Positions 24,541-63,499 of a DNA stretch of 64,000 nucleotides are shown here, piece after piece (within the stretch, counting starts at the first letter, position 1; each line of letters starts with the position of its first letter). Both the position numbers and the translations under genes were made by a program. This stretch comes from Ceratodon purpureus (Eukaryota > Streptophyta > Bryopsida > Pseudoditrichales > Ditrichaceae): NCBI GenBank assembly GCA_014871385.1, contig CM026426.1, positions 59,434,084-59,498,083 of the forward strand. Reading direction: 5' to 3'. The notes below the pieces were generated by a model that ran no database searches, had not been told where the DNA came from, and worked only from the letters and a program-made list of their open reading frames with translations.

Positions 24541-24543
24541 AAA

Positions 24544-25271: not shown

Positions 25272-25276
25272 TCAAG

Positions 25277-28851: not shown

Positions 28852-28879
28852 TATGCCACATTTAAGTAAATCCGGACTT
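28852..28879 (+). repeat. Left terminal inverted repeat of unit B (28 bp)
   Basis: Begins TATGCCACATTTAAG and ends CCGGACTT. It is a perfect inverted match to 58431-58458. Similarity stops abruptly at the inner edge. Confidence 0.9.
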
Positions 28880-29152
28880 TCAATAGTCCAGATTGGTCAA
28901 AGTCCAACTGAAATATGATGGGTAGGGTGAATCGTAGGATCATATGATCCAGCAAAGACCTAACCGTTTTATGAAATTGAGAGAGACCATTAAGGTTAGA
29001 AATGCTTAATACAGCAAACATTGCTCGGGATTAAGTGCGAAACTTATCAAGCATGTGGATATTAAAGATTGGCAACTTGTAAAACACCGTAAGATCCTAC
29101 TATCCATGGTAAGTAGGTATATATAAACACTTCACGTTAGAACATTACATAA

Positions 29153-29157
29153 ACAGT
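29153..29157. repeat. Target-site duplication ACAGT (left) of retrotransposon II
   Basis: Repeated at 38065-38069 after the 3' LTR. Confidence 0.85.
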
Positions 29158-29814
29158 TGTTACCTACAACAGCCACGGCAATCAAGGTAACCAGGGGCGG
29201 TGAAGACTAGCAGTTAAAGGAAGGAGCAGGCAAAGCAGAGAAGTCGTAGTTGTAGCACAAAGATAGGACAGAACTTAGTATAAACAGAGTAGCTAGTGGA
29301 AAGCTTACACTCTTCACTTTTGTGACAATGTTGAGTCAGGACTCTTAGTACGCTTGTTTTTCCTTGTAAGCTGGGGCTCCGTTGCTCCACGATGCCCATG
29401 GGTGTCTCGGATAATAGACCCTCTCTCGCTTTGCTTGCACTTGCTCTGTTCTGTCTCTTGCTCTCTGTGCTGCTTGCTTAACCCTAGTCTGACCTTGTTT
29501 GGGCAAGTTATCTCTCTCTACCTTTTGCCTCGTCCTACCACCCAGTCGGTTCTCCTTCTTGAGACTAGGAACTGTTCCGTTCTTCATCACTCGGGTACCT
29601 GGCAACCTTCGCTTGATCTCATTCGCCTTGGATCCCAGGTCTGCCTTGACGAACCTCCAACGGTTCTAGTCCTGGCTCCGGGACCCCCCTTTGTTCCCAT
29701 GACCGTACAGTTCCTCCTAAGACCCTGTGACCGTGTACCCTGGTTATAGGAGTTCACGGTCTCCTTGGTTCTAACCGCACCTCTAGCAACTCCATCCGTT
29801 CAGCCCAGATAACA
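29158..29814 (+). repeat. 5' LTR of retrotransposon II
   Basis: 657 bp from TGTTACC to ATAACA. About 99 percent identical by eye to 37408-38064. Confidence 0.94.
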
Positions 29815-29817
29815 TTT

Positions 29818-29839
29818 TGGCGACCATGCTGTGGATGGA
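29818..29839 (+). other. Primer-binding site of retrotransposon II
   Basis: TGGCGACCATGCTGTGGATG begins three bases after the LTR. It differs by one base from the site of retrotransposon I. Confidence 0.8.
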
Positions 29840-29887
29840 TTGCTGAGGTATTTCAAGTTCTTCTTGAAAATTTAAAAACCGCTTACC

Positions 29888-31207
29888 ATGCCTCCCAGAA
29901 AACTCCCCCTAGATCGGATCATCGAAGCAGAGGACGCTACTCAACAAGATGACCCTGAATCTACGAAAGATTTCTTTGTATGGATGAAACAACAGATGAC
30001 CGAGTTGGTAGCCAAAAATGAGGCCACTAATGCTAAGTTGGAATTACTTAGCGCACAGTATCACACCCTCCAAGAGAGTAGAACACACGAGGCCATTAAT
30101 GCTACGCCCCAGGCCTCAGAAGCTCTCCCTGAAGCACTAAGATCTCCCACGATTCCAAGGGATAACCACACAGCGGCTACTCTTCCTAGCCAAGGTGATA
30201 CAAGTAAAACTGTTAAGTACCCCAAGATCTCTTACCCCGTGTTCGACGAATCAGGAGACCCTGATTGGCACGTCCGGAGATTTAAGGTTATAGCTAGAAC
30301 TAATGAAGTCACCAATAATGAAGACCTCTAGAATATTTTTGAAACCACGCTTCAGGGTAACCACATCAATTGGTATATTGATTTTGAGACGAAACACTCA
30401 CACGCTACCTGGGATGACATGGAACGGAGTTTTCTGCATAAATTCAAAAAATTGAAAACTAGTTCAGAAGTCCTCCGCGCTTTAGGCAGCATTACCCAGG
30501 ATAAAAACAAACCAGTAGATAAATTCTACGACAGATTTAACCAGCTTGCCGACAAATTAAGTCAGCGCCCTGAAGAAGATTACCTCTGTGAGTGGTTCAA
30601 GAAGGGTCTGTTTCCATGGATACAACAGGGCATTGTGATCCGCGGTGTTAAAACTTTGCATGACATCCTGACTGCAGCAAATGATATTAGCAGAGAGCTA
30701 GGAGCCTTAAACCGAGTACTGGCACCCCTGTTACCTTTACCCAACCTACGACTAGAAACTAGGCCCCCCTTGGCTCCTTGTTCCAGCTGTGGAAAAATAC
30801 ATGGAGGACGCTGCTGGTACGCTAACACCTCACCACGACCTGAGGATACCCGACGCCGTCGGCCTACCGCGGCAACCATATACCCTGAAGAAATAAACGT
30901 AGATGCATTTCAACCTAGCCAAGGGGATGCGTGCTGGGAATGTGGTTCGTTAAATCATAAACGAGGCCAGTGCCCTCAGTTACACCAGCGATGGGCTCAG
31001 TATCGTTCCAACCCAGGCCAGCAAGGAACCATGGAAAATCCAAAGGGACCTGGAACTCCTAGAAGGGGCGGAGTCACACTAACTGAAGTACACGGAGTGG
31101 AAACGAGTGTGTCGACTATTAGTACTGCAGTAGTAACGACCCGATCCAAGGCTCCCACGGAAAATCACGTGGTGGAACACCGCAAACCTTTTTCAGAAAA
31201 TCACTGA
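29888..31207 (+). pseudogene. gag of retrotransposon II
   Basis: Starts MPPRK like element I. It has the same capsid-like region and two zinc knuckles near 30780-30980 (CSSCGKIHGGRC and CWECGSLNHKRGQC). A TAG at 30329-30331 replaces the Gln codon of element I, and a TGA at 31205-31207 replaces a Trp codon. The frame is otherwise open. Confidence 0.88.
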
Positions 31208-34200
31208 GAAAGACTCCATAGGATACAACAGGACTTACAAGAAGGACTAGAAAATTCACATACATTTTCACCTTTGCAGCAGATCTTAGACGATACGAAT
31301 GTTACTATCACATTATCCAAGTTGATCAAGTTAAGCCCTGAACTCCAAGAATACCTACAATAGACAGCCATACCTGAAGGAACAACCGACCCAGAAGTCA
31401 TTGAAGTTAATGCTACTACTCTGGACCTAGATGCCGCGGTAATCCATTTACAACTAGGGACTCATGAAGTAGCCAATGTATTGGTAGATGGAGGCTCTGG
31501 AGTGAACGTCATGAGCAATCATCTGAGAAAACAATTGGGACTACCCTCACCACGGTTGGCCCAGTTCATCCTACGAATGGCGAATGATGCCCTAGTAACA
31601 CCATTGGGTATCTTGTCCACAGTAGCCATTACCACACATGGTGTGTCGACACCAGCCACTTTTGTCATCATTGAAATGCCAGATAGTAGTAATTTTCCGG
31701 TAATCTTGGGACGGCCTTGGTTGAGAGACATGAATGCCATCCACGACTGGTCTAGAAATCAGATACGGATACTATGCCACGGGAAAACAGTCGTAATTCC
31801 CGTAGATAGCTGCATCACCAAGGCTCGAGCCAACCAGATTCGACACAATGCGGGAACTAACTAGGCCGGTGGACTATCACCCAAACAAGAAGCCATGGTG
31901 TTTCAGGCCAACCCTGATTTAATCCTAGTAGCGGAAATACATTTGGCCTGCATGGTGGCTGAACAAGACCAAATGGATATACCACCTCATTTTTCCTAGG
32001 AACTTCAAGAAAACATTACAGTTAACGCCGTCCCTGCCAACCAAACCTTGCAGAACGAAATAATTACAGGATGGTCCCATGGAGCCAAGGACAAGGTCGA
32101 GTTAGTAAACCTGGGAACAGACGAAAAACCAAAATACATCAAGATCAACGCTGACGCTCCCAAATCCATCAAACAAGCCGCGATTGCCCTATTCCATGAA
32201 TATCAGGATATTTTCGCTTGGGGCCATGAAGATCTCAAGGGAATACCTGCAACCTTGGCAGAACATACCATAGATTTGGTACCAAATGCAACCCCGGTAC
32301 AGCAACGGAGATACAGAATGAACCCCAATTATGCGGGAAGAGTCAAGGCCGAGTTAGACAAAATCTTGAAGGCCAAGTTTATTTCGCCAGTGGACTCCGC
32401 TCCCTGGCTGTCTCCCATGGTTATTATTCCCAAGAAAAATGGGACATTAAGAATTTGCGTAGATTTTTGCAAATTAAATGCAGCCACAAAAAAGGACCAC
32501 TACCCCTTGCCTTACATGGAAGAAATTATAGATGAAGTGGCAGGCCATGAAATGTATTCATTTTTAGACTGTTTTTCAGGATATTACCAAGTTGCCATGG
32601 CTGAGCAGGATAAAAATAAAACGGCATTTTCTACTGAATGGGGGCCGTATCAGTTTGAAAGAATGCCTTTTGGAGCCAAAAATGCCCCTATGACATTCCA
32701 ACGTGTCATGGAATTAATATTCGGGCCATACTTGAAAAGATTTTTTCGGATTTACTTAGACGATGGAACGGTTTATGGCCACATTAAAGATCACATTTTT
32801 CAACTCCGGCAAATATTTGAAGCTTGCCGTGCTAATGGAGTAAGTCTCAATGCTGAGAAATGCATGTTCCTTTTCTTTGCTGAAGTAATCCTGGGGTACA
32901 TTGTTTGTAAGTACGGAAAACTCCCTGATCCCGAAAAAATCAAGGACATCTTGGAAATCACCCCACCCAAGGATCAAAAGGGCATTCAACGCCTGTTAGG
33001 ACTCTCACAATTCAATGGAATATACATAGAAAAGTTAGCACATATAACCGCTCCAATCACGGCTTTAAATCATGCCAAATACAAGTATCCCCAAGACTGG
33101 ACCCAAGAAGCCCAGGCCGCCCTTAAAAAAATTAAGCTAGCTTATTCCCGTGCTCCCATTCTCATTGCGCTAGACTGGTCCAAACCATTCCATGTTCATA
33201 CAGACGCATCCAATATTGCCGTGGGAGTCATGCTAGCCCAAAATTTAAATGGAAAATATGACCAACCAGTGGCTTACGCCAGTCGCCTATTAAACCAAGC
33301 AGAAAAGAATTATTCTACAACTGAACGAGAAGCCTTGGCCATGATTTATGCTGTTAAAAAATTTCGACACTATTTACTTGGAAACAAGTTCCGCTTCATG
33401 GTAGACCATCACAGCTTGTCCTACTTGGTAAATCAGCCCTTGGTGACAGGCCGCGTTGCTCGCTGGATAATGATCCTCCTGGAGTATGATTTTGAGGTAG
33501 TTTATGTCCCCGGTAAACGTCACATAGTAGCTGACTATCTATCCAGGGACTCCAAGGCTACCGAGGAGGGAATTGATGATTCGTTCAATGAATCTTACAT
33601 TCAGACTGCGAGTTTGGAAGTTGATATCCCTGGTGATTGGCGGGGAGACATAATGAGATATCTCACTCAAGGCACTACATCCCCAGGACTTTCTGGTACT
33701 AGACGGGTTAGCTTTGTCCGATCAACCCTGCCATACACAGTCGTCCAAGGGCAACTTTACAGACGCGGCCCCGATAATGAAACACGACTCTGTGTACCGA
33801 CAGGAGAAGAACAGAACATTATAGCTATTCTCCATGACAGCCCAGCCGGGGGCCATCAAGGCCCAGAAACCACGATTAAAAAGATTTTGGGGGCCCGCTA
33901 CTGGTGGCCAACACTGCACAAGGATGTCCACGCCCATGTTAAAAATTGTCATGCATGTCAGATTTCTACAACAAATTTTCAACATCAGGGCCGAGTTCCC
34001 TTAAAATCAATCCCACCGTTAGGACCATTCCAACGCTGGGGGCTGGATTTCGTTGGTCCCATTCGTCCTGCAACAAAGCAGGGCTATAAATACATCCTGG
34101 TAGCCACGGATTATACCACAAAATGGGTTGAGGCCAAGCCCTTGAGAACCAATACTGCCGTGGTTACCGCATCTTTCATATATGACAATATTATTACACG

Positions 34201-35431
34201 TTTTGGCTGCCCCTTGGAAATTGTATCGGACCAAGGTAGTCACTTTGTTAATGCGGTTATTGAGGACTTGTTAGATAACCACATCATCAAGCACCGGACC
34301 AGCACTGTCTACTACCCCCAAGGGAACGGCCAGGCCGAATCTACTAACAAAACCTTGATCAACATGCTAAGAAGGTTCATCCATGCTAACCAGAGTGATT
34401 GGGATGATTGCTTACCAGCTGCCCTATGGGCTTATCGTGTAGCCACGAAAACCGCGACTCAGGTTAGCCCGTTCGAAATGGTCTATGGAACCCAGCCCTT
34501 ATTACCCACGGAATACATAGCTCCTACTTTCCAATCGTTACAGACAAAGGATTTTGCGCCTCATAGAGTTTTAGCTGCTCGTCTCCAGGACATCCATCAT
34601 ATAGAAGAAATCAGGGCTCTAGCAATTAAAAACATCCAAAACAGGCAGGAACTAACAGCAAAACACTTCCAGTCCACCAAGCCAGTCAGGGTTTTTCAGA
34701 AAGGTGACCAAGTGTTATGGTGCCCCAGGGACTCCAAGTTACGAAAAACAAAATTCGAATCCATTTGGCATAGGCCGTACAGGGTACAGTTAGCACTCCC
34801 TGATAACACCGTGTTGCTCGTTAATTGTGAGAATTTTGATCACCATGCAACCATCGTCAATTCCACTAAATTAAAACACTACCATACGGCACAACCAACC
34901 ACAACGCCCACGCTTAGCCTTGGAGACATTTACAAAAAATTAGCCACTGAAGCCCACGCAAATTTGGAGGACGCGGATAATTTAGATCCTGAACCCAAGG
35001 AATCCACTGCCAACGTGGAAATTCATGTTAGTCACATCCGGGTCTGCCTTCCAGTTGGCCAGGGACACCTTGGATGTCATGACAATGGGTCACAATCAAG
35101 TTCCCCTAGTCCCCGCATCATTAGGCCCCCGCCGCCACTATCATCGCCACCCTGTGGACTAGACAACCTACACTATGCCAGCCCCTGCCCCTCCCCATCA
35201 CTCCAGTCGAGGCCGCCAAGGATCCAGGGACTATCATCAGCTCACCAAGGGTCGCTTCAATTCTCTGTTCCTCTCTCACCATGCCCTTGTCTTCTTCCTC
35301 CCTGGGTTTCCATGCGCACTGGCTCCTTTGTGGTCACCCTCCATAGCGTCCCTCGGCATTTTGTTTCTCCACAGCTTCCTCATGCTCTCCTTCTTCCCTG
35401 GACCTTCCCCACAGTACGCCCAGTGTTAGTC
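31208..35431 (+). pseudogene. pol (PR-RT-RH-INT) of retrotransposon II
   Basis: Protease with VDGGSG near 31485. TAG codons at 31361 (Gln in element I), 31862 (Trp) and 31998 (Lys) precede the reverse transcriptase. From 32048 the frame is fully open: RT with IYLDDG near 32750, RNase H (HTDASN) near 33200, integrase HHCC finger near 33830-33960, and core DFVGP, DQGSHF and GQAEST near 34050-34330. The integrase C-terminal region runs into a Pro/Ser-rich stretch that continues in frame into the extra ORF. Confidence 0.92.
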
Positions 35432-37363
35432 ATGGCGAAAAACAAGAAACCATACCCTCCGTTCTATGTCCCAAGGATGATTCTAGAGTGGAAACGCAAA
35501 CTGGACCTCATTTGGCATACTGAGGTCGGGTTAGGCAAGTATTTGACATTGCTTGAGGGAAAGGTGAACATCAAACATTGTAATGACTTCGTGACATCCA
35601 TGCGGATGCGTGGAGTGCTTAGCCAGGTTTATTTTCAGAACAACTGTAATGGCATTAAGCCAGAACAGTTGTCTCTGCTTCTCATGGCCGAGCAAGGCGA
35701 GAAGATCAATTGGGGCATGCTGGTAGAGGAGAACTTCCGCATCCAGCTGTTGGGACATCGGAAGGATCTCGACTACCACAGCCCCATCGGGCCGTTTCTC
35801 ACAGCGTATATCCAGAATTACTTGGCGTTTCATAGACGACATGGTAAGGGGCCGCTCATGGGGACCTTTTTCGACATCCAGCGGGAGCTCGCTACAGTTG
35901 CAGCACGAGACCCCAGTCTCCTAGGTCCGAGCAAACGCCCACGAAGCGAAGAGCGTGCCAAGACACCAGGGGCAACATCAGCACCAACAACAGCAACAGC
36001 ATGGGGACCATGGGCAACACGATTTCACACCAAGATTACCGCCATTTCCGAATGCGTGGGGGAGATGTTGGAATGGATCCGCAAGGCCGAGCTGGAGAAG
36101 CAGGAGCAGAGCAATATGGAGGAGCGTTACAAACGCAAGGTGACCACGGCTGTCCAAGGAGCCCGAGACCAGGCCCAACGAGTCCTCGACAACACTCATA
36201 CCGAGTACCGCCAACAGATAGAAGAGAAGGACCAGACCCTGTCCAATTTGCGCCACCAAGTTGCTAATTTGGAATTGGAGCTCCGTGCCACACAAGACCA
36301 CGTAGACGCACTCTCCAAGGAAAAAGCTAGTGCAGGGGAACGCATCCAACACCTGGAGCAGCAACGGCAGGAGTATTTAGCACGATGCAAGACCCTCACA
36401 GCGCATAACGAGACCTTGAGGCTGGGGCAGAAACCAGAGGAGACCACAGACCTTCAAGACCTGAGGACCACGGCCGAACAAGCTCTCCAGGAGTTCGAGG
36501 CTAACAAGCTGGGATGGATCCACACGGCTGCCAAGTTGATCGCCAACAACGCCTACACATGGCTTTGCGATCACCCTGCTACGACAGCCGAACCTCCCCA
36601 AGAACTCCTCGACCATTGCATTGACACTACACTGGCTACTTTAGAGATGGAACAGTCAGAAAATGACTGGGAGAACATGGAGCTGGATCCCATGGATCTC
36701 AAGTCTTTCGACATGGAAGCCTTGTCATTACCTTCCTCGGCGGCCATGGGGACAGTACCAACCAGCCCCCTACAAACACCACAGGAGGAAGCGCGGCCTT
36801 CAAACCTCATCATCCCTGATGTCCATGACCGAGCAGAACGTGTAGACATCCCCGACCAATTCACCGACCCCGAGGACACCCCCCAGCCGTCACCGAACCT
36901 GCAACCACAGCTGCAACCTCCACAACCACAGGTGAATCCCACGGTACCCATGCGTTCCAAGTCTATTAAACATCATAAGGATGCCTTGAGAAAAATAGAG
37001 GAAGAGTATGATCTCGAGGAAGAGAACAGCGATGAAGAAGAAGCCAAGGAAGAGTTAGCGACTGCAATTACAAAGCTCAAGCGTTATTTTGAAGCTAACC
37101 CTGACCTCGTTGCTTTGTACAGCGACACCGAGGCTAATCATGTGCAATGCCCCGCCTGCAATAAAATACTAGGAAAAACAGTGTACGACATTTATCAGCA
37201 TGCCATGACTTCTAGGACCAGACACAACCTAATCCATCGGGGTGTTGGTGCAGCCATAGCCGCAATACATGGCGATGAAGCTCCACCCCGCGGTCTCGCA
37301 CAGCTGCCCAGAGAAGAAACTCGGCCTGATCGACGACCCGCCCACCGACGCACGCGTGGCTGA
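35432..37363 (+). CDS. Extra 3' ORF of retrotransposon II, fused in frame to pol
   Basis: The internal ATG 35432 (MAKNKK) matches the start of the separate ORF in element I. The N-terminal region has lost about 90 residues relative to I (near 35600). Next come a long coiled coil (36050-36450), an acidic Pro/Gln-rich stretch, and a C-terminal C2H2-like finger (CPACNKIL...H...H) followed by a basic tail. In element I a stop separates integrase from this ORF; here deletion or drift has made them one frame. Function is unknown; a nucleic-acid-binding accessory protein is plausible. Confidence 0.7.
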
Positions 37364-37390
37364 ACCTCTAATCCGGGACGGATTGTGCTC

Positions 37391-37407
37391 TCGGAGGGAG
37401 GGCTAAA
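37391..37407 (+). other. Polypurine tract of retrotransposon II
   Basis: CGGAGGGAGGGCTAAA directly before the TG of the 3' LTR, the expected plus-strand primer site. Confidence 0.75.
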
Positions 37408-38064
37408 TGTTACCTACAACAGCCACGGCAATCAAGGTAACCAGGGGCGGTGAAGACTAGCAGTTAAAAGAAGGAGCAGGCAAAGCAGAGAAGTCGTAGT
37501 TGTAGCAGAAAGATAGGACAGAACTTAGTATAAACAGAGTAGCTAGTGGAAAGCTTACACTCTTCAGTTTTGTGACAATGTTGAGTCAGGACTCTTAGTA
37601 CGCTTGTTTTTCCTTGTAAGCTGGGGCTCCGTTGCTCCACGATGCCCATGGGTGTCTCGGATAATAGACCCTCTCTCGCTTTGCTTGCACTTGCTCTGTT
37701 CTGTCTCTTGCTCTCTGTGCTGCTTGCTTAACCCTAGTCTGACCTTGTTTGGGCAAGTTATCTCTCTCTACCTTTTGCCTCGTCCTACCACCCAGTCGGT
37801 TCTCCTTCTTGAGACTAGGAACTGTTCCGTTCTTCATCACTCGGGTACCTGGCAACCTTCGCTGGATCTCATTCGCCTTGGATCCCAGGTCTGCCTTGAC
37901 GAACCTCCAACGGTTCTAGTCCTGGCTCCGGGACCCCCCTTTGTTCCCATGACCGTACGGTTCCTCCTAAGACCCTGTGACCGTGTACCCTGGTTATAGG
38001 AGTTCACGGTCTCCTTGGTTCTAACCGCACCTCTAGCAACTCCATCCGTTCAGCCCAGATAAAA
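37408..38064 (+). repeat. 3' LTR of retrotransposon II
   Basis: Same length as the 5' LTR. The terminal CA appears mutated to AA, after which ACAGT follows. Confidence 0.93.
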
Positions 38065-38069
38065 ACAGT

Positions 38070-38639
38070 AAAGAAGACTCCAACAGTATTCATACAAAAG
38101 TTATCAAACATGTGGGTATTGTAATATTGGCAAGTAGTAAGCAGGATCGTAAGATCCTACGATGTTTGCCAACCTAGGTGTAAAAACACATCACATTATT
38201 TGGATTCTGTGAACTGTAAAGAAAAATCCAAATCGGAGTACAACTGGAGTGTTCCGCCCTTTACATGTTACTTTGTATTGTGTACACATCAGAGATGCCA
38301 CTACTCCTGAAGCCTCAATAACAACTAGTAACCATGTATTCTAAAACTATCTGATTGTGAGAAGCAGCTCTATCAAAAACGAGCTGGACAATTTCAACAC
38401 ACACTAATTAGTCCGTAGACATTGCACATGGAGAAAAGCCTCATCGTGTTCACTAACGGCCATGCACCGTGCGGACCTTCGCAATGGACTTGGCTCGGAC
38501 AGCACTACACTCAGTATCAACGGATGGATGCACGGATCCAAGCGACGAATACGTGGACTGCGGGCTTGCGTTCCCTCCCCTTTTTAGATCTTCGCCAGAG
38601 CACCGACTTCCAGCACCCTCTGAGATGTCGTATGCTTCG
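38070..38639. other. Unit B non-coding stretch
   Basis: No credible gene. One B-family palindrome copy with a mismatch lies near 38150. Confidence 0.5.
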
Positions 38640-39347
38640 TCAATAATGCGGAGCCACCCTGCAGTTGACATGGTTTGCGTTGACACCTCCCCTATGTGGC
38701 TGAAGTGAACGCTGCCAACACTCCTCGGACTCCTCGAACGTCAGTGGGAAGGCGATGCCGGAAGCTTTAGAGATCTCCAACAACTCTATGGTGTGAGCAA
38801 TACTCCAATCCCACTCCGAACCTGGCTGCAGAACGCGTGTGATGTATTTGAAAGCAGGAATAGCTGTGTTGCGAGAACGGGCGACCACCGCCCTAAACCA
38901 TGGCCGGAGCTCCTCGACGTCAGCCGGTGTCTCCTGTAAAAACCACACATTGCTACCCGCCTCCCTATAACGACAAAATATTCGACAATATGCGACTAAC
39001 TTCTACAGTATGCAACTAACTTCTACAGTATGCGTCTCTCTTCTACAGTATCCGGCTGGAGTTCGTCTACTAAACTGGTAAAAGTTCTAGTAATCCTTTT
39101 TTCTAGGGTTTCTGGACGTCTACTAGCCAACGTTTACCTAGCCTAGAAGCGCCTAGGCTCCTACTCAGCAATAAGAAAACATTATTAGGACTAGGACTTG
39201 CTTAACTAGCTGACAGCTAAAGGAAAGAAGCACATCTAAAACTGAATAATCTCACAGCAACCAGGCAGAGGCAAAGGCAGCATAAACGAGTGCAGTTTGA
39301 TTAAAAAAAGTAAAATCCGAACAGATGTAGCGAATGTTCAACAGGAT

Positions 39348-39548
39348 CATAGGATCCTACGATTAGTTTGCGGGTACTACTGGGCAAAACGAAGCACTTC
39401 TAAAACTGAATAATCTCCAAGCAACCAAGTACAAGAGATTGTAGGATCCTACGATCTCTTTACGGGTACTCTTAGGCAAAACGAAGCACTTCTAAAACTG
39501 AATATTCTCAAAGCTACCACGTAGAGGAGATCGTGGGATCCCACGATC
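39348..39548. repeat. Tandem units of about 90 bp, each with a B-family palindrome
   Basis: Three palindromes near 39348, 39441 and 39529 are embedded in a repeated block sharing ACTTCTAAAACTGAATA and GCGGGTACT-like text. The third copy has compensating changes (GTGGGATCCCAC) that keep the symmetry. The block lies in the intron between the last two exons of the transposase-like gene. Confidence 0.8.
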
Positions 39549-41876: not shown

Positions 41877-41914
<38 letters not shown>

Positions 41915-46108: not shown

Positions 46109-46239
46109 CTGTAAGTGATCCGGAATTGTTTTGATGAATATTCGTCCGTATAGTGAGTAATTAGTGGACTCTAGAATTTCCGCGATTTCTACATTAATTG
46201 GCATGTTTGTTTAACGGCAGTTGATAGCGTCAAACGCAA

Positions 46240-47599: not shown

Positions 47600-48402
47600 G
47601 AAATAGTGACTGACATCCATGAACTCTGAACCCTGGAAACCCTAAACCCTAAACCTTGAAACCTTAAACTCTAAAGTACATGGTATATTTTTAATTTCAA
47701 ATTTAAGAAAAATAAAATACCAAAATGAATAGTCCTCTCTGACAATAGAAATAAAATGGTTAGCAATTAAATATTCGTCACAAATTGAAAGTTCCAATCA
47801 TTGTACATAAAAATCCCTTCTTATCTAGATAATAAACAAGATTGTGCCTCCATGGCCACAATTTTGTATCATATTTCTCCGCTCTTCTTCCCTACCCTTT
47901 TTTATTCATTTTTTTAATCTTCGTAGTATATTCATTTCTCATTTTTAGTTACTAGCCATATATTTATTTTATCTAAATAATTATGTCTTGTACTTTTTTG
48001 AAGTTGTAGCATATTAAGTGTGCATATACAAAAACAAAGTAAACTACATTGTATAAATAAAAGTTTCAAACATTGGACACAAATCTCCTCTAGTATGCAT
48101 TTACAAAACAGTAAACCACATAATTTGTATAATTAATAGTTTCAAACATTCAACACAAATTTCTCGTCTCATGCTTGTAAACACATGTCTACGACCAACT
48201 TGCTTGGGCACCCATGTCTACGACCAAATTGTTTAGAGATGAGTTTTTGATGTTTTTTGATTTTTGAATCGTTTATTTATTAATATCTTTCTCGTACATA
48301 TTATAAAGTCCTGTTTTAATTTACCAGCCATATATTTATTTTATGTAAATAATTATGTCCACAACTTTCTCGAAGTTGTAGTATATTTATCAATATGCAC
48401 AA

Positions 48403-48465
<63 letters not shown>

Positions 48466-49350
48466 ACTACATTGTCTTATTAATTAAATATGTTAAAATA
48501 TTAGTTACTAATATTTATTTATTTGATTCATAATTCTTCTTCCAGAAGATGCGATGCTTTTTTTCAAATTATGCGTCTTTGTGGAGATATTCACTTATAT
48601 ATTTATTTACCTTGATTTATTTATTTGTCACGATTTCTGTATTTTTATGTCTAATGCTTCTTCTTGAAGATGCGTTGAAGAAGATTTATTCATCTCGATT
48701 TTATTCTTCATGCGTTATGTTTCTTCCTAAAGATGCTCCATTATTTTTTTAACCCTCTTAATAAATATAATATAAGTGATTGTTCCATTTTTCAATGCGC
48801 TATTATGATATGGGCAGGTCATTTTCCTCAAGTTTCTCAAATGCTATAATTTCACAAATTCACAAATAAAAGAGAGATATATAGTTTTTTCATCTTTTAT
48901 TTTTTTAGGGTTTTCTTTATGAAACCCTTCTTCTTCCCCGTTTTCCTTCACCTTTCTTTTATTGTTTTATTAAAAAGCAACCCATGATACTTATAGATAG
49001 ATAGTAGATAGTAATACCGTTGTTAGATTCCCAACTCCCGTTAGATGCACCCTTTAGTAAAAGGCATAATTTTACAAAAAATAGTAGACCACATTGTATA
49101 ATTTAATAATTTCAATCATTCAACACAAATCCCTTTTTCATGCATTTAATAAAAATACATTGAACGGACCCATGTATACGAGCTAATTGTTTAGAAACCT
49201 ACCAAGTTCAATGTTTTGAGATTTTTTCATAGTTTATTTATTAAATTATCTTTCTATATAAAAGGTATTTTTTTGAATTTACTAACTATAAATTAATATC
49301 TTTCTTATTCTGTTAATTATGTAAATTCATATTAACCTTCGTAGATATTT
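47600..49350. repeat. AT-rich region with diverged repeats and telomere-like patch
   Basis: CCCTAAACCCTAAACC lies at about 47640. A roughly 100-bp phrase (ACCACATTGTATAAT...TTTCAA-CATTCAACACAAAT) recurs at about 47780, 48045, 48120 and 49090. A pure run of 59 A lies at 48406-48464. No gene is seen. Confidence 0.55.
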
Positions 49351-49559
49351 AGGTCCTTTAATTTCTGGAAGCTGGCTTTTGTTAACCATATACAGTGTAG
49401 TATTTACCTTCATTAATTATTGGAATCTATATATCAAACTTCTAGACAGCTCTCAAACTACTAGACAGCTCTTCATTCACATCAAACTAGTAGTCAGCAC
49501 TCAATGAATAGCCGCCATAGTTAGAATTCTAATTATTCCAGAGCTTCTGACATTTCAAA

Positions 49560-49801
49560 CGCGTTCATCTTCCCAAACCCGGTTTCTTGATTTCCCGCGA
49601 CTCCTCGGAGACTTGCGCTTAGGTTTCCTTCGTGTTCTGTACGCAGTCACTGTTTTAGCCCTAGCATATGTGTTTTTCTGCTGAATTTTCGCGATCGTCC
49701 CGTGCTTGTAGCCTTTTGTCTTCCGGTTCTTAAACCTTTACTTTCGCCGTCTCCTGCGCCTTTGTTGTCGCGATTTCTACCCTTTCTACATTGGCACGCA
49801 G
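49560..49801 (+). promoter_or_regulatory. Leader exon/promoter region of gene B
   Basis: Composition becomes GC-richer and the stretch ends in a good donor, CACGCAG/GTAAGC, at 49802. The placement mirrors the leader of gene A. An ATG-containing short exon follows at 50326-50370 (MSSQVKATHK), spliced to the exon at 51019. Confidence 0.4.
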
Positions 49802-50601
49802 GTAAGCAATGCTGTTCCGATGAATTTTGTTCCTTATCCGCTCAATGCTTTGTGGTCTCAAGATCGTTCTTGTCATTGTCTTAGTCTTAAATTTTGTGAG
49901 TTCCTTTCAGTGTATATTTCTGCATCCAACTTAATTTTTGTTCCCCAACATGCTTGTATAGAGTTACTTTGTCTTTGAATCCGTTGTGGTGCGAGTATGG
50001 CCGGTGTGGTTTAACGTCGGTGGATGGTGTTGCGCCGGTACATAGCTGCATCCCTCGGAAAGAGTGCAACGCTTTGACTTCAGGTAAACTACTTGATACG
50101 ACACTATCCCGCAAAAGCTGCCCTTTCGTTCACTTTCATCCTTTCTATGTAGCTTAGCCTTCGCTGAAGGTTTCTTTATGGTAGAGAATGGCGAGCAAAT
50201 GGATGGACGTTGATGTTATTTTTGGTGTCACACTATTGCAAAATTGAATTCGGGTTTTCACAGTGGTTGCCTTAACGATTCTGCTCTACTCTCATGTTTA
50301 CAGAATTGGAAATTGAGCAACGTCAGTATGTCTTCGCAAGTAAAAGCAACGCATAAGGCTCTTGACAAGTAAGTATTCACTGAATTTTCCAACTCTATGC
50401 ATTAGAGGTTTGTGATCTTTGTTTGAATCCAATAAACCAGTGATACAATTCATTCAGAATTGGACACATTTTATTTTTGTTGTCAAATGTTTCAACAATC
50501 GCTCAATTTTGGAATTCCTTATATGTACGGCAGTAATGATTACATCATACAGAGAAAAACGATCCTTATTAGATGCCCCAATAAGTATTCGAGCAGAGAG
50601 A

Positions 50602-50969
50602 GATCGTAGGATCCTACGATCTCCGAGTTGAGCACCGTTTATTTCCGAAGAGCATTCTGAGGGTCGTAGGATCCTACGATCTCTTCTCGAGCTCCCCCTT
50701 CAATTTGGAAACCTTTAAGAGATCGTAGGATCCTATGATCCTTGGAATAAGCAAACTTAAGCGCAAGTGAAGTTGGAGATCGTAGGATCCTACGATCTCT
50801 CAATGATTACGGAAAGATGACCGTGGCTCATCGAAAGATCGTAGGATCCTACGATCTCAAAGGGAAGTGGTTTTCCGAGCGGCGCATTAGAATGATCGTA
50901 GGATCCTACGATCTAAGACAAACGTGTTGTAGTTTCAAACGAGAATGGGGATCGTAGGATCCTACGATC
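50602..50969. repeat. CRISPR-like periodic array of seven B-family palindromes
   Basis: Copies start at 50602, 50662, 50721, 50778, 50837, 50894 and 50950, so spacing is 56-60 bp. The 20-bp repeat is perfect in most copies, and the 36-40 bp spacers are all different from each other. It fills the intron before the main coding exon of gene B. There are no cas genes, and this is not a CRISPR locus. Confidence 0.93.
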
Positions 50970-51018
50970 TCAAATGAAGAATGAACGAGATCTAATAATT
51001 TTGTTCTGTTTGATGCAG

Positions 51019-52369
51019 GGATAACTTAGAAAATCTCGAGCACGTTAACTGCGACTGGTAACCAATGGTTTTGGCGGATGCTGTTTCCGCGGCGATGGTG
51101 AAATCTCCCATGTCTATCAACGTCGACCCTGAACCAACCGCGTGGTTTGTCGCTGATAAAATTGTCGAGCGGGGCCTTTATTGGCATCTCGAACCCGAGA
51201 CGGAGCAAGTTCTGATTGCGCCAGGTACGGCAATCACGGATGACAGCGCACCTAGCAGAGACACTTTTAAGCTACCCACGAAATACTTGGAGGTACTGGA
51301 AATGGCCAAGCTCGACGATCGGCTAATTGTATTAGTAATTTTGAAGTATGTTGCGAGCGTAAACTATAGTCACACATACGCCCTGGTTGTTATGAAGGAC
51401 GCTCTGATGCCGAAGCTAACTGACTCTGTGAAAGACCATGGCTTCGTGATCTCGAAGCTTCATTTACCAGTTCAGAGGATTCTCCAATGCTGGACAGAGC
51501 TGAAGGCAAATCGTGATAAATACAATAGGGAACGTAAGAAGAAAGTTCCGCCCTCGCCCTTGAAAATGAAGAGGGGTTCTTCTCTTAGAGTAGTAGATGA
51601 GCCTCCAGCGAAGAAACCATCTCAGCGCAAGAAGTCTGACCCCAAGGTAGAAGAGATGACCCTCGCAAAGGTGGTCAACATGACGAGCAAGACAGTGGCC
51701 GGGAAATCAGCAAAGGAGCTGCAGCAAGTGAGGGCTCTTTACGAGAAGGAGTTCACCAAGCTACACATCTTTGGGAAGTGGCCCATCAAAAAATCTGAAC
51801 GAAGTCAGGATGACTTGCTAGTCAACATTGACAAGTTCCACCGAGCTCCAACGGGTACCATTGTGTATCGGAATTTGGAGCTTAAACGAGTGAATCAGCT
51901 GATGGACCAGATACGGGCAATGCTGTTTCAGCCTTCACTCCAGCACCTCTACGTGATGCCAGTCAAGGGCGAACCGCCAATTCGCAAGGAGGACTTCAGG
52001 GATGTGCCTACGGAGACTTACGAGTATTTTGATCACAAACTGACCTGGAGTGACATTAATGAGAGAACACACTTCATCATTATAGGCGGGCAACACTGTG
52101 TTGCCGCACACAGAGCCCTCATCGCCGAGGGTGGATTAAGTGAGGAGGATAGGAGAGATGCACGAAGTTTTATCGTCACTGTGGTCTGAACCAAAAAAGA
52201 GGAGTGGAATCTACTCATTTATTATTGCCGGGTCCTGAATCAGGACCTTGCCGGTGTGCAATGAGAGGGGAACTACCTTACTCTTCTGGGACTTGCCCGC
52301 ACAAGTTGGAGAGAGGCTGGATTGCCAGCACCATCATTAACGGGTCTTGCGCACTCACCAGCTTACAAG
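51019..52369 (+). pseudogene. Gene B exon: ParB/Srx-like domain
   Basis: Homologue of gene A exon 1. The exon begins after TGATGCAG; a TAA at 51059 precedes ATG 51065, so translation from the upstream ATG at 50326 would stop there. From 51065: an N-terminal region of unknown fold, a basic stretch (residues about 160-200), then the ParB-like core with IIIGGQHCVAAHRAL around residue 342. TGA codons at 52187 and 52262 both fall where Trp is expected from gene A. The frame otherwise continues to the donor at 52370. The N-terminal 200 residues are strongly diverged from gene A. Confidence 0.7.
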
Positions 52370-52439
52370 GTATGCCAACATTGCATTACAGTTTTGTTAA
52401 TGATTTCGAGATGTTAAATGTATCCTCCACGTTCTTCCG

Positions 52440-52700
52440 GATTGTAGGATCCTACGATCTCTGAGTTCAGCAGTGTTTGTTTCCAACAAGCATTCCAGAG
52501 ATCGTAGGATCCTACGATCCTCGGAATGCTGGTATATGAAGCGCCACTGAACTTGGAGATCGTAGGATCCTACTATCTCTTGATGCATGAAGATTGAAGA
52601 GCGGGGCTCATTTGGAGATCGGAAGATCCCACATCAATTCGAATTTGGATCCCAGCATGTAAATTACTTTACTCACTCGATGTAACTTTCGTCGTAGGAT
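52440..52700. repeat. B-family palindrome array in the next gene B intron
   Basis: Copies at 52440, 52500, 52558, and degenerate at 52617 and about 52690. Several spacers are recognisable diverged copies, in the same order, of spacers in the array at 50602-50969 (for example CTGAGTTCAGCA against CCGAGTTGAGCA). Confidence 0.88.
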
Positions 52701-52774
52701 ACTACGACCCCAACTACACATTTATCATCAATCTGTGCATTCATTGTTCTAAATGATTATTTGGATGCACGCAG

Positions 52775-54229
52775 AGTTGGTCCAACTAACTGCCCGCTCT
52801 GTTCTCCAACTCCGACTCCATGTCTATTGAAGATGGCAACACTGGCATACCCAAATATCCTCTGCTCTTTGTAGATGAGCAGATTTACAGAAAGTGGTGT
52901 GGTATTCAAGACAATTGGGTAAATGGTTTGCTTCATGATGCGTTTGGACAGTATTCCACCTTCGTCGCAGGTGTGGATGAGGACGATAACAACGACGGGG
53001 ACGGAGGGATAGGAAGTAGTAAGAAGGAGCGCCTGAAGCAGAAGAGATATCAGGTGCGAGCACTGAAGCAGACTAACTTAATGCCGCTTTATTCCATGCG
53101 AGATATTGACATCATAAAGGTTACGGAGCTGGTGTTACAAAAGAAAGTGTCTGTGAAGTCCACAAAGTCCACCAAGAAACAACCCGTTCTTCCGGGCCTG
53201 AATGAGGCGTGTCATTTGGAGAAGAAGCGCAGGCTCATCAAGAACGAGTTCATGCACTACTTCAAGAAAAAGGAACTAAGGTGTAAGACAATGCGAGCAG
53301 ACTCGTACACCGATACAGAGTATGATACCGCTGCGCTGAAGTACAATGTAACCGAGGCCACCATAGACACGTGGTACGAGAAGCTAAGCAAGGATGTTAA
53401 TGGAGAGCGTTTTTTTAGGCTGCGGTCTTCGGCATTGTATCCATCCAACAAGGAATCAGATTTTTCGACTCTTCTCGGGATGTTATTTGAGCACCAGAGA
53501 AAGGACAAAGGCGACCGGGTTCAGGACGTGCCAGCAACGTCAGGACCGTCCGTGGCATCGATGTACAAGTGCCTCAAAATGAGCAGGAAAAACGGGGATC
53601 TCGCTACAGTTCTTGATCCAAAAAATGGCGAGATTGTTTCCTGGATGAAGGCGAATGCTCGGATTACCATAGTCTTCTGCTTCTTGAACCGACTCGAGAA
53701 GGGGAAGCCTAACTTCTCGATCATGGATCACGTGTTGCGTTCTCTTCGGGCAATGGAGATCCACGATCAAGCGCAGTTCAGGAGGGCATGTTATTCGGGG
53801 GTCTTCATCACAGATCGGGCAGGACTGGTTGACGTTGCCAACGCTATAGAGGAGAGAGGCTCCTGGGTCAATCAAATTCGGCCGTGGCTCCATACCCCCA
53901 CTCTTTACATTACACAGGGAAAGGAGGGATTTATCACTCCGACGACCCCTGAACCTACACTCCCCCTGTACTTCAATTTTGTGTATGGAAACGACTTCGA
54001 TCAGAGGACGCCTGATTCTATTTGCTTCCAAGCAGCTTACGATATAGACATGCCCTTCTACCAGGTTGTATCTGCAGCTGATTTCAAGGATCCCCGGACA
54101 CAATGGGCACAAGATGGTTATGCTAACTTCAACATCGATGCAGTTACACACATTCTTGGCACCCTGGGAGCACCTAACAACATTCTGGTCAACATTGGAG
54201 GCGGTCCGTTGATCACTTGGATTGGCTTG
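52775..54229 (+). pseudogene. Gene B exon: methyltransferase-like region
   Basis: Follows the acceptor GCACGCAG. A TAA at 52787 lies near its start, then 470 codons are open. It corresponds in position and length to gene A exon 2 but is only weakly similar. An acidic Asp-rich insert is followed by basic and helical stretches, and near the end LVNIGGGPLITW sits where a motif I (FxGxG) strand-loop is expected. No DPPY-like motif is clear. I infer a degenerate methyltransferase fold because gene A, which keeps more of the pattern, is collinear. Confidence 0.5.
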
Positions 54230-54236
54230 GTAAGAG

Positions 54237-54540
54237 GATCGTAGGATCCTACGATCTCATCCCCTGCAACCCGTTCTGCTTGTCATATTCTCCTCTTTTT
54301 ATTATAGTTACATCATCGCCTACCTAGTTGGGATCCTAGAATCCCACAACGATAACTACTTTCAGTGATTAAAGCAAATTACAAATTGAAGTTAGCGTTC
54401 GAATTATCGTAGGATCCTACGATCTCTAAATGAGTTCCGCCCTTCAACCTTCATGCATTGGGAGATTGTAGGATCCTACGATCTCCAAGTTCATTGCCGT
54501 TTCACATTGAGCAGTATGAGGATCATAGGATCCTACGATC
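54237..54540. repeat. B-family palindromes in the following intron
   Basis: Copies at 54237-54256 (seven bases inside the donor), 54405, 54464 and 54521. The last three are spaced 59 and 57 bp. A decayed copy lies near 54331. Confidence 0.88.
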
Positions 54541-54651
54541 TCGTTCCCTAAATCCTTTTTGCTTTCAATGTCTTATTCCATTTATTGTCGTAATTTTATC
54601 ACCTACGGGCTTCTCGTATTCACTCTTCCACCTTACTTTCTGTTGTTACAG

Positions 54652-55062
54652 ACAAGAGGCGCGCAAGTCCTCGAAATCGTGTTCAACGAGAATAAAGTGG
54701 AGAAAGCGACAAAAACGGCAAGTGATATTCTCGAAAGTGCGAAAACGCTCGCCATAACTGTACCTACTATGGAGGCTCTGACAATGAGGGAGAAATCGAA
54801 GAGGGGTGCCAATTCCCGGCAAAAACGTCCGATTGAGCTTTCCGACGACGAGGAGGAAGAAGAGGGAGAGGAGGAAGAAGAGGAAGAAGAGGATGAGCAT
54901 GATGAACGGCGGGAAGAAGAGGAGGGTTTGCACCTCCGTGGAGGAGGTGCTCGCAAGGGACTGAACATGGAAGGATCTTCTCAATATCAGTATGGCTCAA
55001 ACAGTCTCGGCGTACCTCGGACCGACGATGTCGAAGAAGAGATTTATGAAAATCTTTTCCCA
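54652..55062 (+). pseudogene. Gene B exon: end of methyltransferase-like domain and acidic linker
   Basis: In phase 0 from the preceding exon. It continues the strand after motif I (GAQVLEIVFNENKVEKA), then has a run of more than 30 Glu/Asp-rich residues and a short tail. This is collinear with the acidic linker of gene A exon 3. Donor GTATGATG at 55063. Confidence 0.6.
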
Positions 55063-55221
55063 GTATGATGCAGTTCCCGACTTCTGTAGTAGTAATCAGA
55101 TGTGGTGTTTGACACATGGTACAGAACTAACTAGATCAATGTCACTATTGTGGAACGAACCATGCAATGTGTCATTGTTCAACATTTTGTGTATTTATTT
55201 CCGTTACTGATTGCTTTGCAG

Positions 55222-55840
55222 GTTAACCCTCCCAACAACCCGCCATCTCGAGGTGGATGCCTTACGAGATCCGCTTTCACGCCGGAGTCCCCCCCTTCGA
55301 AGGAACTTTCCCGAAGTGAACGCGGGATTTACTCTTCCACTAGTCTAGCTCAAGGGAAACACCAGGGGGGTACTAGTTCAAGTGCACAGAAAGGTTTCCA
55401 TGGCAATTCTGGCCCTCCTGGACAAGATGCTGAAATGCCGTCAGCGGTAGACGCTGTCGTGTCTACACCTCCTTTTGGCATTACATCTTCTTTGCCAGTC
55501 CATCTTCCATGGACTAAACCGTCTCCAATGCAGATCGATACCGACTTATTTACGTCCGCAAGTCATGCCCAAGGGTCCGAAGGTGATTTGCAACAGCAAA
55601 ATGTCGCGGATACGCTGGCCGAGATGCAGGACGATCCGGATCCATACGCTCTTCCTTCTGTGCCTAGCGACTTAGCAAAGGACAAAGAGGTAATTGCTGG
55701 TGTCTTCGAAGAAGCCCACGAAGCGGGGTTGCGGCCTTTCAGCCCTCTTAGATCGGACCCCTTCACAGTTTCCCAGGATTACCGGTCGAAGTCTAGCTCC
55801 CGGGATGTGCAGCCTGCGAATAAGAGAACTCCCACAGAAG
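55222..55840 (+). pseudogene. Gene B exon: Ser/Pro-rich linker
   Basis: Phase 0 in, phase 1 out, fully open. Pro/Ser-rich and probably disordered. It corresponds to the linker exons of gene A. No domain recognised. Confidence 0.55.
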
Positions 55841-55907
55841 GTATTTCCCACCACTTTTCTTAGCGGAATCTGAGTAATCCGTTTTAGGCATTTTCTATGG
55901 ACATTAG

Positions 55908-56072
55908 GATCGTAGGATCCTACGATCGAGAAGGGAAAATTTCATCCTTATTTCATCTCATTGCATATCGTAGGATCCTACGATCTCTCAAAAGGATCGT
56001 AGGATCCTACGATCTCTTTTTTGGTTTGTCAAAATGTGACATCCTCTTTCAGGATTGTAAGATCCTACGATC
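55908..56072. repeat. Four B-family palindromes in an intron
   Basis: Copies at 55908, 55966, 55995 and 56053. Two have single changes. Spacing is 58, 29 and 58 bp, so one interval is half the usual period. Confidence 0.88.
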
Positions 56073-56122
56073 CATACGCTCGTCTCAGTGTTCTAACAAA
56101 AATGTCTTCTTTTGATCTCAAG

Positions 56123-56206
56123 GGTTAAAGTCTTCGACGTCTATGCAAAGCAAGAGGAATGTACCAATTGTTCCAATGAAAAAGGGATCTGCATCATCTA
56201 GAGAAG
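56123..56206 (+). pseudogene. Gene B short linker exon
   Basis: 84 bp, phase 1 to phase 1, basic and Ser-rich. Flanked by TCAAG and GTAATT splice sites. Confidence 0.45.
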
Positions 56207-56290
56207 GTAATTCTCGCCACACTATTTGATTTTACATGACATGTGTTCTGCAAGGATGATTCTTATTAACGATTTGGCTGTCTTTTGCAG

Positions 56291-56946
56291 GCAAACAAAA
56301 TGCCTCCACAAAGTCAATCGGGACTAGTGTCAAGAAGGTAAGGCAACCTTGGTACACTATTGTGGTGGACTTGAATGGTTTCCTTGTATTGCGAGGCGGC
56401 AAAAAGGGTCAAGAAACCAAAGTTAGGCCTGACGCAGGAAAGTTCATGGAGCTGTTAGCAGAGAAGGCTAACGTCGTGGTATGGAGTTGTATGATCAAAA
56501 AGAATGTGGATAGGATTGTAGCGAAGGTTTTAGAAGGGTCAAAACTTAAGCCGGAGCTGCTAACAGTGCTAACGCAGACCGAAGCTACCAAGTCCAGTTA
56601 CCGAAACGAGGAAAACCCAGACAAGCAATTCATCCTTAAGGACCTTGAGGTTGTCTAGGATAAGCTTGAGCATGTTGACCTAAGCCGAACATTGCTCATT
56701 GACAACAGCTGGTACAAGAATCTTCTCAATGATTACCATGATGCAATCTACCCCATTCCGTGGACGGGGTTGCCTAGGGACAAGTTCCTCATGTCCACTC
56801 TGCTTCCTTGGCTGGAAACTATGTTCAAATTTGGCCAGACTGTCCAGAAATATGTCCGTAACAAATACCTTGAGCCCGGATTCAAGGACTGTAGGAAGGA
56901 CTTCAATAGTAACCTGGCTTTACAAATTCGGGATGGATGTCAATAG
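56291..56946 (+). pseudogene. Gene B exon: FCP1/NIF-like HAD domain
   Basis: Acceptor TTTTGCAG, in phase. VVDLNGFL is the motif I equivalent (second Asp replaced by Asn, as in gene A). VVVWSC and LLIDNSW follow, the latter where gene A has LIDDSP. A TAG at 56656-56658 splits the frame, which ends at TAG 56944. LLPWLETMFK aligns with the part of gene A split by retrotransposon I. With Asp lost from both key motifs and a stop present, phosphatase activity is unlikely. Confidence 0.75.
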
Positions 56947-57539
56947 GATAGTCATCATCTTGGATAATCACCCCACAAAATTAGTGTTAGGGGCGTCTTG
57001 TATACTTTGTAAAGTTTTGTTTCATTCCTTTCAAGGACGCACATAGTAATGAGGATATAGTTCTCGTAGTGAAGGCTAAATACCGGTGAACAAGGTGGGT
57101 TTCAGTTTTTGAAGCACTTAACTGTGAGCGATTCACTAGTTACTTCAATATTTGTATTGAGTTGCACACATTTTAAAATTTCTTATCTACATAAACTTCT
57201 AGGATATACCTCAACTTTTTGAATCCAAGTGTAACAACATTCTATCCATAGGTTGTGTGAACAGTATTTTGTTCACTACGAGGAGAGAGCAAATTGTAAT
57301 ATGATTGTAGGATTAGACCACGCACATTGAGGAGGGCTGTGTTGTAACCCCCAATTTTACAGTAGTTCTGCGGTCAAGGAGTGATGCATAGGAGCTATGG
57401 TCTAGACGTGAATTAGGGACCTTCCGGATATGGAAAAATCCAATTATCCACATCATAGGATCCAGCGATGACCATGGATAAATTAGCACGCCGATTATGG
57501 TTTCCATGCTTTTGCGATCATTGTTTTTATTTCGGAATC

Positions 57540-58018
57540 GTAGGATCCTACGATCCATTATGTTGGTTATAATATTTGGCGGTGCTTTATGTCCGCAGCA
57601 AGGAGACGTTTTGAGGAAGGTTATGGTGCTATCTGTTAACGGATTGCTTTGTTTTGAGCAATATATCAAGTGCACCCCTCGTCGCTTCAATCTGAGGAAC
57701 ATTATGGCTCGTCCCGGTCTTCTGGAATTCTTCAGGATACTTCTCAACAACTTCAAAGTTGGAATATGGTCCTCCATGGCCCCTGCAAGACTAAGTAAGG
57801 TTATTCGATATCTCCTACCCGATGAGATTAGATTGAGGTTGCTCTTCTGTAATGGACGAAACAAGTGTTCCAAGCCGCATTTGTATCCTTTTTGTGACAA
57901 AGAGCTATCCAGACTCGTAACGGACGAGAAGACGAAGCACTTCTGTTGTCCAGACAAAATTCTGATGGTTGATGACCAGCCAATGAGGCATGTTTTCAAT
58001 GGAGACCTGGCGTGCTAA
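57540..58018 (+). pseudogene. Second FCP1-like domain copy of unit B
   Basis: MVLSVNGLLC, ARPGLLEFF, VGIWSSM, LFCNG and KILMVDDQP follow in the order of the FCP1-like fold. Both motif I Asp residues are gone (S-V-N). A B-family palindrome at 57536-57555 lies at its upstream edge. It is partial: no equivalent of the C-terminal 60 residues is seen before the TAA. It could be a tandem duplicate of the gene B domain. Confidence 0.6.
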
Positions 58019-58430
58019 TTTCCAACTCCGTGGAGTGGTGAAATGACGTTACCCAATGCAGCAAACGTAATTCCTGACGTAGCAACAGCGTTGCTTCCGT
58101 TTATTCTGCCGCTAAAGTATTCCGCCTCGGTAAAGGAATATCTGTGTAGAAATTAGAAGGATGGAAAGTTTAAGCATAGACTGATTGAGAGGTGGCACAT
58201 TGAAAGAGTGCTACGTAGTGATGGTGGATCGTAGGATCCCACTGCACCGTCTGTATACAAACATACCTTTCAATAAATATATATTAAGCTCAATTTGTGC
58301 AACATTGTCTGAACTTCGGCTGAAAACCAGTATATAGTGCATTTTTGTGATACTGCCCACGCCATCATGGTGTGATCCCACGGTCTTATAATCATGCAAA
58401 AAGTGTACTCGAGGTCCGGTATTTACCTTT

Positions 58431-58458
58431 AAGTCCGGATTTACTTAAATGTGGCATA
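58431..58458 (-). repeat. Right terminal inverted repeat of unit B (28 bp)
   Basis: Perfect inverse of 28852-28879. The outermost palindromes lie at 58227-58240 on this side and 28930-28949 on the other. Confidence 0.9.
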
Positions 58459-58466
58459 TGTCCATT
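58459..58466. repeat. Candidate target-site duplication of unit B, right
   Basis: TGTCCATT, partner of TGTCCATG at 28844-28851. Confidence 0.8.
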
Positions 58467-61905: not shown

Positions 61906-61908
61906 AAA

Positions 61909-63480: not shown

Positions 63481-63499
63481 CGAAAGGGGCTTTTCTCAA

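Follow-up and report, generated by a model that had tools for sequence, protein, structure and literature searches.

The bacterial proteins ParB, Noc and KorB work at DNA sites that are palindromic; among transposons, VANDALs are Mutator-like elements. The VANC proteins of the latter undo silencing of their own VANDAL family by way of dense noncoding motifs private to that family, as described in the parts of two reports available to us (PMC5735166; PMC10398659). Here we analyse a 64-kb window of the Ceratodon purpureus genome (the whole stretch, 59434084-59498083 of contig CM026426.1; coordinates below are those of the window, with zero and negative values lying upstream of it). The window holds a giant DNA transposon, E1, the element under study, and its positions 1-26999 are filled by a second, E2; a third, E3, lies upstream of E2, and for both E2 and E3 we read an additional 20 kb upstream of the window. 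Each family has its own palindrome of 19-21 bp, GATCGTAGGATCCTACGATC in E1, TTTAGCTCACNNTGAGCTAAA in E2 and CGTCGGCNNNNNGCCGACG in E3. We propose, with a probability of roughly 0.55, that an element-encoded protein binds these palindromes for expression or anti-silencing of its own family, the most likely binder being the ParB-like protein encoded beside them.

Like VANDAL21 (Hi) with its VANC protein, as far as the same parts of those reports describe it, the locus has short family-specific motifs that are dense in noncoding DNA, introns and upstream regions and that change between families (PMC5735166; PMC10398659). Unlike VANDAL, it has a probable transposase of the DUF7869 family and a candidate binder of ParB fold. 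With bacterial ParB-parS, Noc-NBS and KorB it shares the ParB/sulfiredoxin (Srx) fold and DNA bearing multiple palindromic sites, but the host DNA is a eukaryotic transposon, the open reading frames (ORFs) scanned gave no match to ParA or to a helix-turn-helix (HTH) domain, and the ParB-like proteins carry GQH or GHH instead of GERR, the motif of bacterial ParB.

Ends, copies and relatives of E1

The preliminary description took a perfect 28-bp inverted repeat, 29.6 kb apart and bordered by a 7-bp direct repeat (8 bp with one mismatch), for the ends of a giant transposon inserted in a retrotransposon gag zinc knuckle. The inverted repeat is present (28852-28879 and 58431-58458, arms separated by 29551 nt), and a scripted search allowing up to 6 mismatches found no further copy of the 28-mer in the window. 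However, its first base varies among seven other opened copies (C, A, G, T, T, A, G). This places the first base of E1 one position inward, at 28853, and its last base at 58457. The true terminal inverted repeat (TIR) is therefore 27 bp long, and it is perfect over this length in the window copy. In this register the flanks read GGTGTCC-ATGT / ATGCC...GGCAT / ATGT-CCATTACA, a 4-bp target-site duplication (TSD). The 7-bp repeat, TGTCCAT, does stand outside the arms, because the host site itself reads GTCCATGTCCAT, but the TSD is ATGT. Removal of the segment rejoins gag in frame, as had been noted, and does so in either register: the 4-bp register gives the knuckle CTNCNGHGHLSNEC (C-TN-C-NGHG-H-LSNE-C, form CX2CX4HX4C), and the 7/8-bp register gives CTNCNGHLSNEC (form CX2CX2HX4C). 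Three other knuckle-like motifs occur in the gag fragment, two of the form CX2CX4HX4C and one (CSFCGGPHDVSKC) of the form CX2CX3HX4C. The form of the knuckle favours the 4-bp register but is insufficient alone; it is the other copies that prove it.

A genome search with the first 299 bp of E1, in which 40 of 186 candidates were scored and counts are thus lower bounds, gave at least 66 matches, with at least 40 places, the window included, beginning at query base 1, 2 or 7; 37 of these 40 (again with the window) cover at least 272 bp at 94-100% identity. Eighteen left ends were inspected (the window, seven opened copies, and ten through 1.3 kb at the expected distance), and both ends were present in 10 of the 18 copies, the window among them, the right ends of the nine further paired copies being located with up to 2 mismatches. 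One copy, L008, had no right end within 40 kb. Other loci with paired ends had thus been rightly anticipated, but the duplications around them are of 4 bp instead of the 8 bp expected. They are exact in eight of the ten paired copies: ATGT (window), CTCA, AGTG, ATAT, ATAA, CTAT and TTCT (the last with the right end of copy L005), plus a further ATAT that falls in an AT repeat and is uninformative. One duplication has a single mismatch (CATC/TATC); the remaining copy (ACTT/CTAT) has no 4-bp duplication, which speaks against the overall reading given here. A 2108-bp derivative, L003, keeps both TIRs and a CTCA/CTCA duplication.

The figure of 29.6 kb holds for the span between the ends but is not E1's own length, as six of eight other long copies measure 17.8-18.8 kb (lengths of all eight: 18276, 17866, 18265, 21933, 18849, 18587 and 17779 bp and about 30.8 kb); the two longer ones are of 21.9 and 30.8 kb. 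The window copy is long because it has received two insertions, a Ty3 retrotransposon of 8.9 kb and a CACTA-like element of 2.5 kb. The presence of several nested elements in the window could suggest that a stretch rich in repeats merely happens to lie between inverted repeats and is not one mobile unit, but this idea is refuted by the paired ends and 4-bp duplications elsewhere and by the colinear content of the five E1 copies compared. We read E1 as a TIR DNA transposon of the cut-and-paste, autonomous type, with a length of about 18 kb when free of large inserts, and its insertion in a gag zinc knuckle is borne out. Among five copies compared over 50400-58457, 468 of 1012 single-copy differences are C>T or G>A; such changes are 2-3 times more frequent at CpG than elsewhere, as would be expected of methylated copies. 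In this comparison the alignment of one copy, which carries a deletion, is poor.

As giant eukaryotic mobile elements, E1-E3 resemble Polintons, Teratorn and Starships, and as TIR DNA transposons with an enzyme gene beside the transposase they resemble KDZ/Zisupton and other fungal TET/JBP-carrying transposons. The scan of ORF pieces from E1, E2 and E3 (some short ORFs lay outside it) gave no match to DNA polymerase B, herpesvirus, piggyBac or tyrosine recombinase, nor to TET/JBP in the ORFs scanned. Polinton/Maverick was rejected on the absence of a protein-primed DNA polymerase B match among these pieces, and Starship on that of a tyrosine-recombinase captain. CACTA elements have CACTA termini and TSDs of 2-3 bp, and CACTA/EnSpm was rejected on the ATGCC.../AACAC... 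termini and 4-bp TSD found here. A TSD of 4 bp is also found in Sola, Ginger, Chapaev and Academ. KDZ/Zisupton was set aside too: in the part of the source available to us Zisupton has an 8-bp TSD (PMC12730594) as against 4 bp here, where the probable transposase is of the DUF7869 family. The enlarged CACTA/EnSpm elements of Chondrus are similar in having 16-20 kb and 4-5 ORFs, according to the available sections of a 2019 review, whose giant elements include enlarged CACTA families, Polintons and Teratorn; the text of the review mentions neither ParB nor a phosphatase nor a palindrome (PMC6431247). Our literature search found no published description of these elements; Repbase, outside that search, may list the group under a name.

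Private palindromes and the ParB-like protein

The E1 palindrome occurs at 35 sites with up to 4 mismatches, whereas 20 base-composition shuffles of E1 yielded 0.0 on average. It recurs 30-38 times in each of four long copies and twice in the short L003, with no site in the flanks of those five copies (11724 + 12134 + 11735 + 8067 + 27892 bases). Patterns for E2 and E3, built from the repeats seen there and counted in one copy each, gave 46 sites with up to 4 mismatches and 24 sites with up to 3 (shuffle mean 0.25), respectively, with three more E3 sites further upstream. Over -19999..64000 each palindrome is exclusive to its own element (35/0/0, 46/0/0 and 24/0/0). The three also differ in their unpaired centre bases (0, 1-3 and 5), that of E3 being gapped. 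Many sites are clustered at regular spacings, of 56-60 bp in E1, 26, 41 and 54 bp in E2, and 41 and 73 bp in E3. Clusters lie upstream of the E1 and E2 ParB-like genes, in introns, and, in E3, in the space from which the probable transposase gene and the ParB-like gene diverge. Only 3 of 35, 4 of 46 and 9 of 24 palindrome midpoints fall in ORFs, which occupy fractions of 0.41, 0.38 and 0.76 of E1, E2 and E3 (binomial P of 2.7e-5, 7.3e-6 and 5.8e-5, approximate values since the ORF sets were hand-picked from stop-to-stop frames). In each of three sets of E1 copies, the palindromes vary less than the 20 bp flanking them.

All three elements have the same gene order: a DUF7869 protein, the probable transposase (-), followed on the other strand (+) by a ParB/sulfiredoxin-like protein, a low-complexity protein and one or more NIF-like phosphatases. 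The first exon of the E1 ParB-like gene is related to the E2 family in a profile comparison (Prob 94.2, E 1.2e-7); that of E2 has 45 homologues, and the structure model of the E2 member has the ParB/sulfiredoxin fold. No ParB sequence family was matched by the E1 and E2 proteins and three homologous proteins in Pfam, nor by E1 and E2 in NCBIfam. A survey of ParB folds that queried TIGR00180, PF02195 and K03496, the first two at cut-offs, gives sulfiredoxin as the commonest eukaryotic form of the fold, and fungi and transposons are unmentioned in its main text (PMC12704722). Because the present family has no PF02195 match in the Pfam scans, such a survey would probably miss it.

The ParB fold beside palindrome arrays suggests the ParB-like protein as the binder. 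An element-encoded DNA-binding protein would recognise the family palindromes near gene starts and in introns and coat the element. Under this coat the element's genes would stay expressed or escape silencing by the host, and the transcription machinery there may be a target of the NIF-like phosphatases. A fuller version, which we hold as a tentative possibility, is that a ParB-parS-like system has evolved or been captured, in which the ParB-fold protein loads at private palindromes and spreads as a nucleotide-gated clamp, the coat blocks silencing or coordinates expression and transposition, and the palindrome-protein pair diverges with each family.

Several observations weigh against a ParB-like binder acting in the manner of VANC. 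The ParB model comes from the E2 member only and has no Foldseek match at E <= 1e-3, the E3 member is linked weakly (Prob 32.8 or 51.1 in profile comparisons), Pfam gives no HTH domain in the putative second exons, and these exons of the three families show no clear mutual similarity. The lower variability of the palindromes is significant in only one of the three sets (P of 0.11, 0.005 and 0.22), and the VANC motif, in the available parts of the reports (PMC5735166; PMC10398659), is of 9 bases and non-palindromic, compared with the palindrome of 19-21 bp here.

Binding of the palindromes by the transposase or another protein would be equally conceivable. That they serve a transposase or TNPA-like accessory protein in end pairing and excision would suit the palindromes found 78, 233 and 381 bp inward from the left end in four long copies, and subterminal repeat arrays are known in CACTA elements; we nevertheless consider this unlikely, as the larger clusters sit far within the element, in introns and close to gene starts, and as L003 retains only two palindromes yet has both TIRs and its duplication. 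Even less credible is that the palindromes are not binding sites of a cargo protein but signals at the DNA or RNA level, such as terminators, splicing hairpins or cruciforms, or else a small palindromic repeat that hitch-hikes. The perfect or near-perfect symmetry and the frequent location between genes and in introns would fit, but a general signal or genomic parasite would be expected to be shared or to occur outside, whereas the sequence differs per family and counts are zero in the E1-copy flanks and in the other two elements. It is also conceivable, if doubtful, that the ParB-like protein is an enzyme (a nuclease, a kinase or sulfiredoxin-like) that serves in DNA processing, replication or counter-defence and has nothing to do with the palindromes. 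Its fold is also that of Srx, SerK and SbnI, and the ParB fold can bind ATP and GTP besides CTP, according to the portion of the survey available to us (PMC12704722), but this role leaves the private palindromes beside three diverged ParB-like genes unexplained.

If the palindromes are indeed sites of the ParB-like protein, these elements would clearly exemplify the ParB fold at work on DNA in a eukaryote, and would be a second sequence-specific self-recognition system of transposons besides VANC. With three diverged families within about 80 kb, each having a palindrome of its own, the specificity is directly testable.

Probable transposase, nested elements and the apparently shared host

DUF7869 is the sole Pfam family above cut-off on the E1 transposase pieces (DUF5363 and PcrA_UvrD_tudor appear below threshold), and VANDAL/MULE was rejected because Pfam gave no MULE transposase domain on them. 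With its conserved blocks, HDKMD ... LDN..-DN ... GHTH[DE]D, the protein is likely the DDE/D transposase of E1; its structure model is poor (pLDDT 44) and gives no support to an RNase H fold. DUF7869, a Pfam family of unknown function on which our literature search found no paper, would thereby gain a role as probable transposase of a 4-bp-TSD group. The frame 45241-45648, without matches, probably belongs to the adjoining transposase gene. Because the CACTA-like element cuts that gene at 40686, the window copy of E1 is probably no longer active.

Table 1. Coordinates of E1, E2 and host features in the window
Feature	Position	Strand	Evidence or remark
E2, second giant transposon	-4625..26999	+	right part, 1..26999, in window; right TSD AAGT at 27000-27003
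E2 palindromes TTTAGCTCACNNTGAGCTAAA, upstream of E2 ParB-like gene	8223..8868	.	11 matches
E2 ParB/sulfiredoxin-like gene	8926..12200	+	exon 8926-10515, motif FMIINGQHS; putative second exon 10842-12200
E2 NIF-like phosphatase	15138..15761	+	motif VLDING; PF03031 E 8.6e-15
Host Ty3 gag, zinc-knuckle part	28336..28851	-	zf-CCHC E 3.6e-13
Left TSD ATGT	28849..28852	.	sequence; 4-bp duplications of other copies
Left TIR, 27 bp, ATGCCACATTTAAGTAAATCCGGACTT	28853..28879	+	sequence and other copies
Nested Ty3 retrotransposon	29158..38062	+	RT, RNase H and integrase; absent in five E1 copies compared
Short E1 ORF	38643..39002	-	no Pfam match; relative open in copy L004; another (+ strand) near E3
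Putative DUF7869 transposase gene, DDE and C-terminal parts	39598..40725	-	broken at 40686; PF25273 E 6.7e-8; copies and homologues
Nested CACTA-like element	40686..43179	.	30-bp TIR CACTATGG..., 3-bp TSD CCA; absent in four long E1 copies compared
Nine palindromes GATCGTAGGATCCTACGATC, within the putative transposase gene and before its start	44073..46108	.	
Putative transposase gene, N-terminal part	44239..45237	-	similar to E2 942-aa ORF (5.7e-21) and E3 (1.6e-43)
Seven palindromes, directly upstream of ParB-like gene	50602..50969	.	56-60 bp apart
ParB/sulfiredoxin-like gene	51062..54241	+	exon 51062-52186, motif FIIIGGQH; putative second exon 52790-54241
Palindrome cluster between the two ParB-like exons	52440..52577	.	
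Palindrome cluster between genes	54237..54540	.	
Acidic, low-complexity protein(s)	54529..55860	+	no Pfam match above cut-off
Palindrome cluster upstream of NIF-like genes	55908..56072	.	
NIF (FCP/SCP-type HAD) phosphatase-like domain	56260..56655	+	motif VVDLNG; PF03031 E 2.7e-5
Second NIF-like domain	57482..58015	+	motif VLSVNG (first Asp lost); PF03031 E 1.4e-7
Right TIR, 27 bp	58431..58457	-	sequence and other copies
Right TSD ATGT	58458..58461	.	sequence
Host Ty3 gag, 5' part	58670..60406	-	PF03732 E 1.6e-8

The Ty3 nested in E1 has long terminal repeats (LTRs) at 29158-29812 and 37408-38062 that are 99.2% identical. A 7-bp repeat, AAACAGT (29151-29157 and 38063-38069), flanks it; the usual Ty3 duplication is shorter, at 5 bp. 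The other insert is called CACTA-like because of its inverted repeats, which are 93% identical, and its CCA duplication.

The E2 TIR, AACACCATATTCATTAAAATGGGACTT, has 3 mismatches at the opposite end and is bordered by an AAGT duplication; TAAA and GGACTT stand at identical offsets in the E1 and E2 ends. Its probable transposase is the 942-aa ORF at -3462..-637. E3 spans from beyond -18.7 kb to about -5.8 kb and has three NIF-like domains; its ends were not found in the 20 kb read upstream. On one side of E2 lies a reverse transcriptase (RT) ORF (-5432..-4551, RVT_1 E 3e-16), and on the other an ORF at 27001-27540, protease-like by eye and without a Pfam match, followed by the gag pieces. Since the order and strand of the pieces (27001-28896, 58670-60406 and the RT ORF) are colinear, a single Ty3 appears to have been hit twice by related giant transposons, by E1 in gag and by E2 between the protease-like ORF and RT.

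Another Ty3 is nested in E2 (15756-25272), with LTRs (15756-16487 and 24541-25272) 99.7% identical, so that its insertion is recent. Both nested Ty3s have, by eye, long extra coding stretches past the integrase (32000-37360 and 16536-19058). The short ORF is conserved (GRRGSN...NTAIPAFKYITRxLQP): it is situated close to the left end in E1 and, oppositely oriented, close to E3, and its region is also covered by the 2.1-kb derivative. The stretches 2001-6000 and 48001-50000 are AT-rich (GC 0.26-0.31), with a strong skew in 2001-6000.

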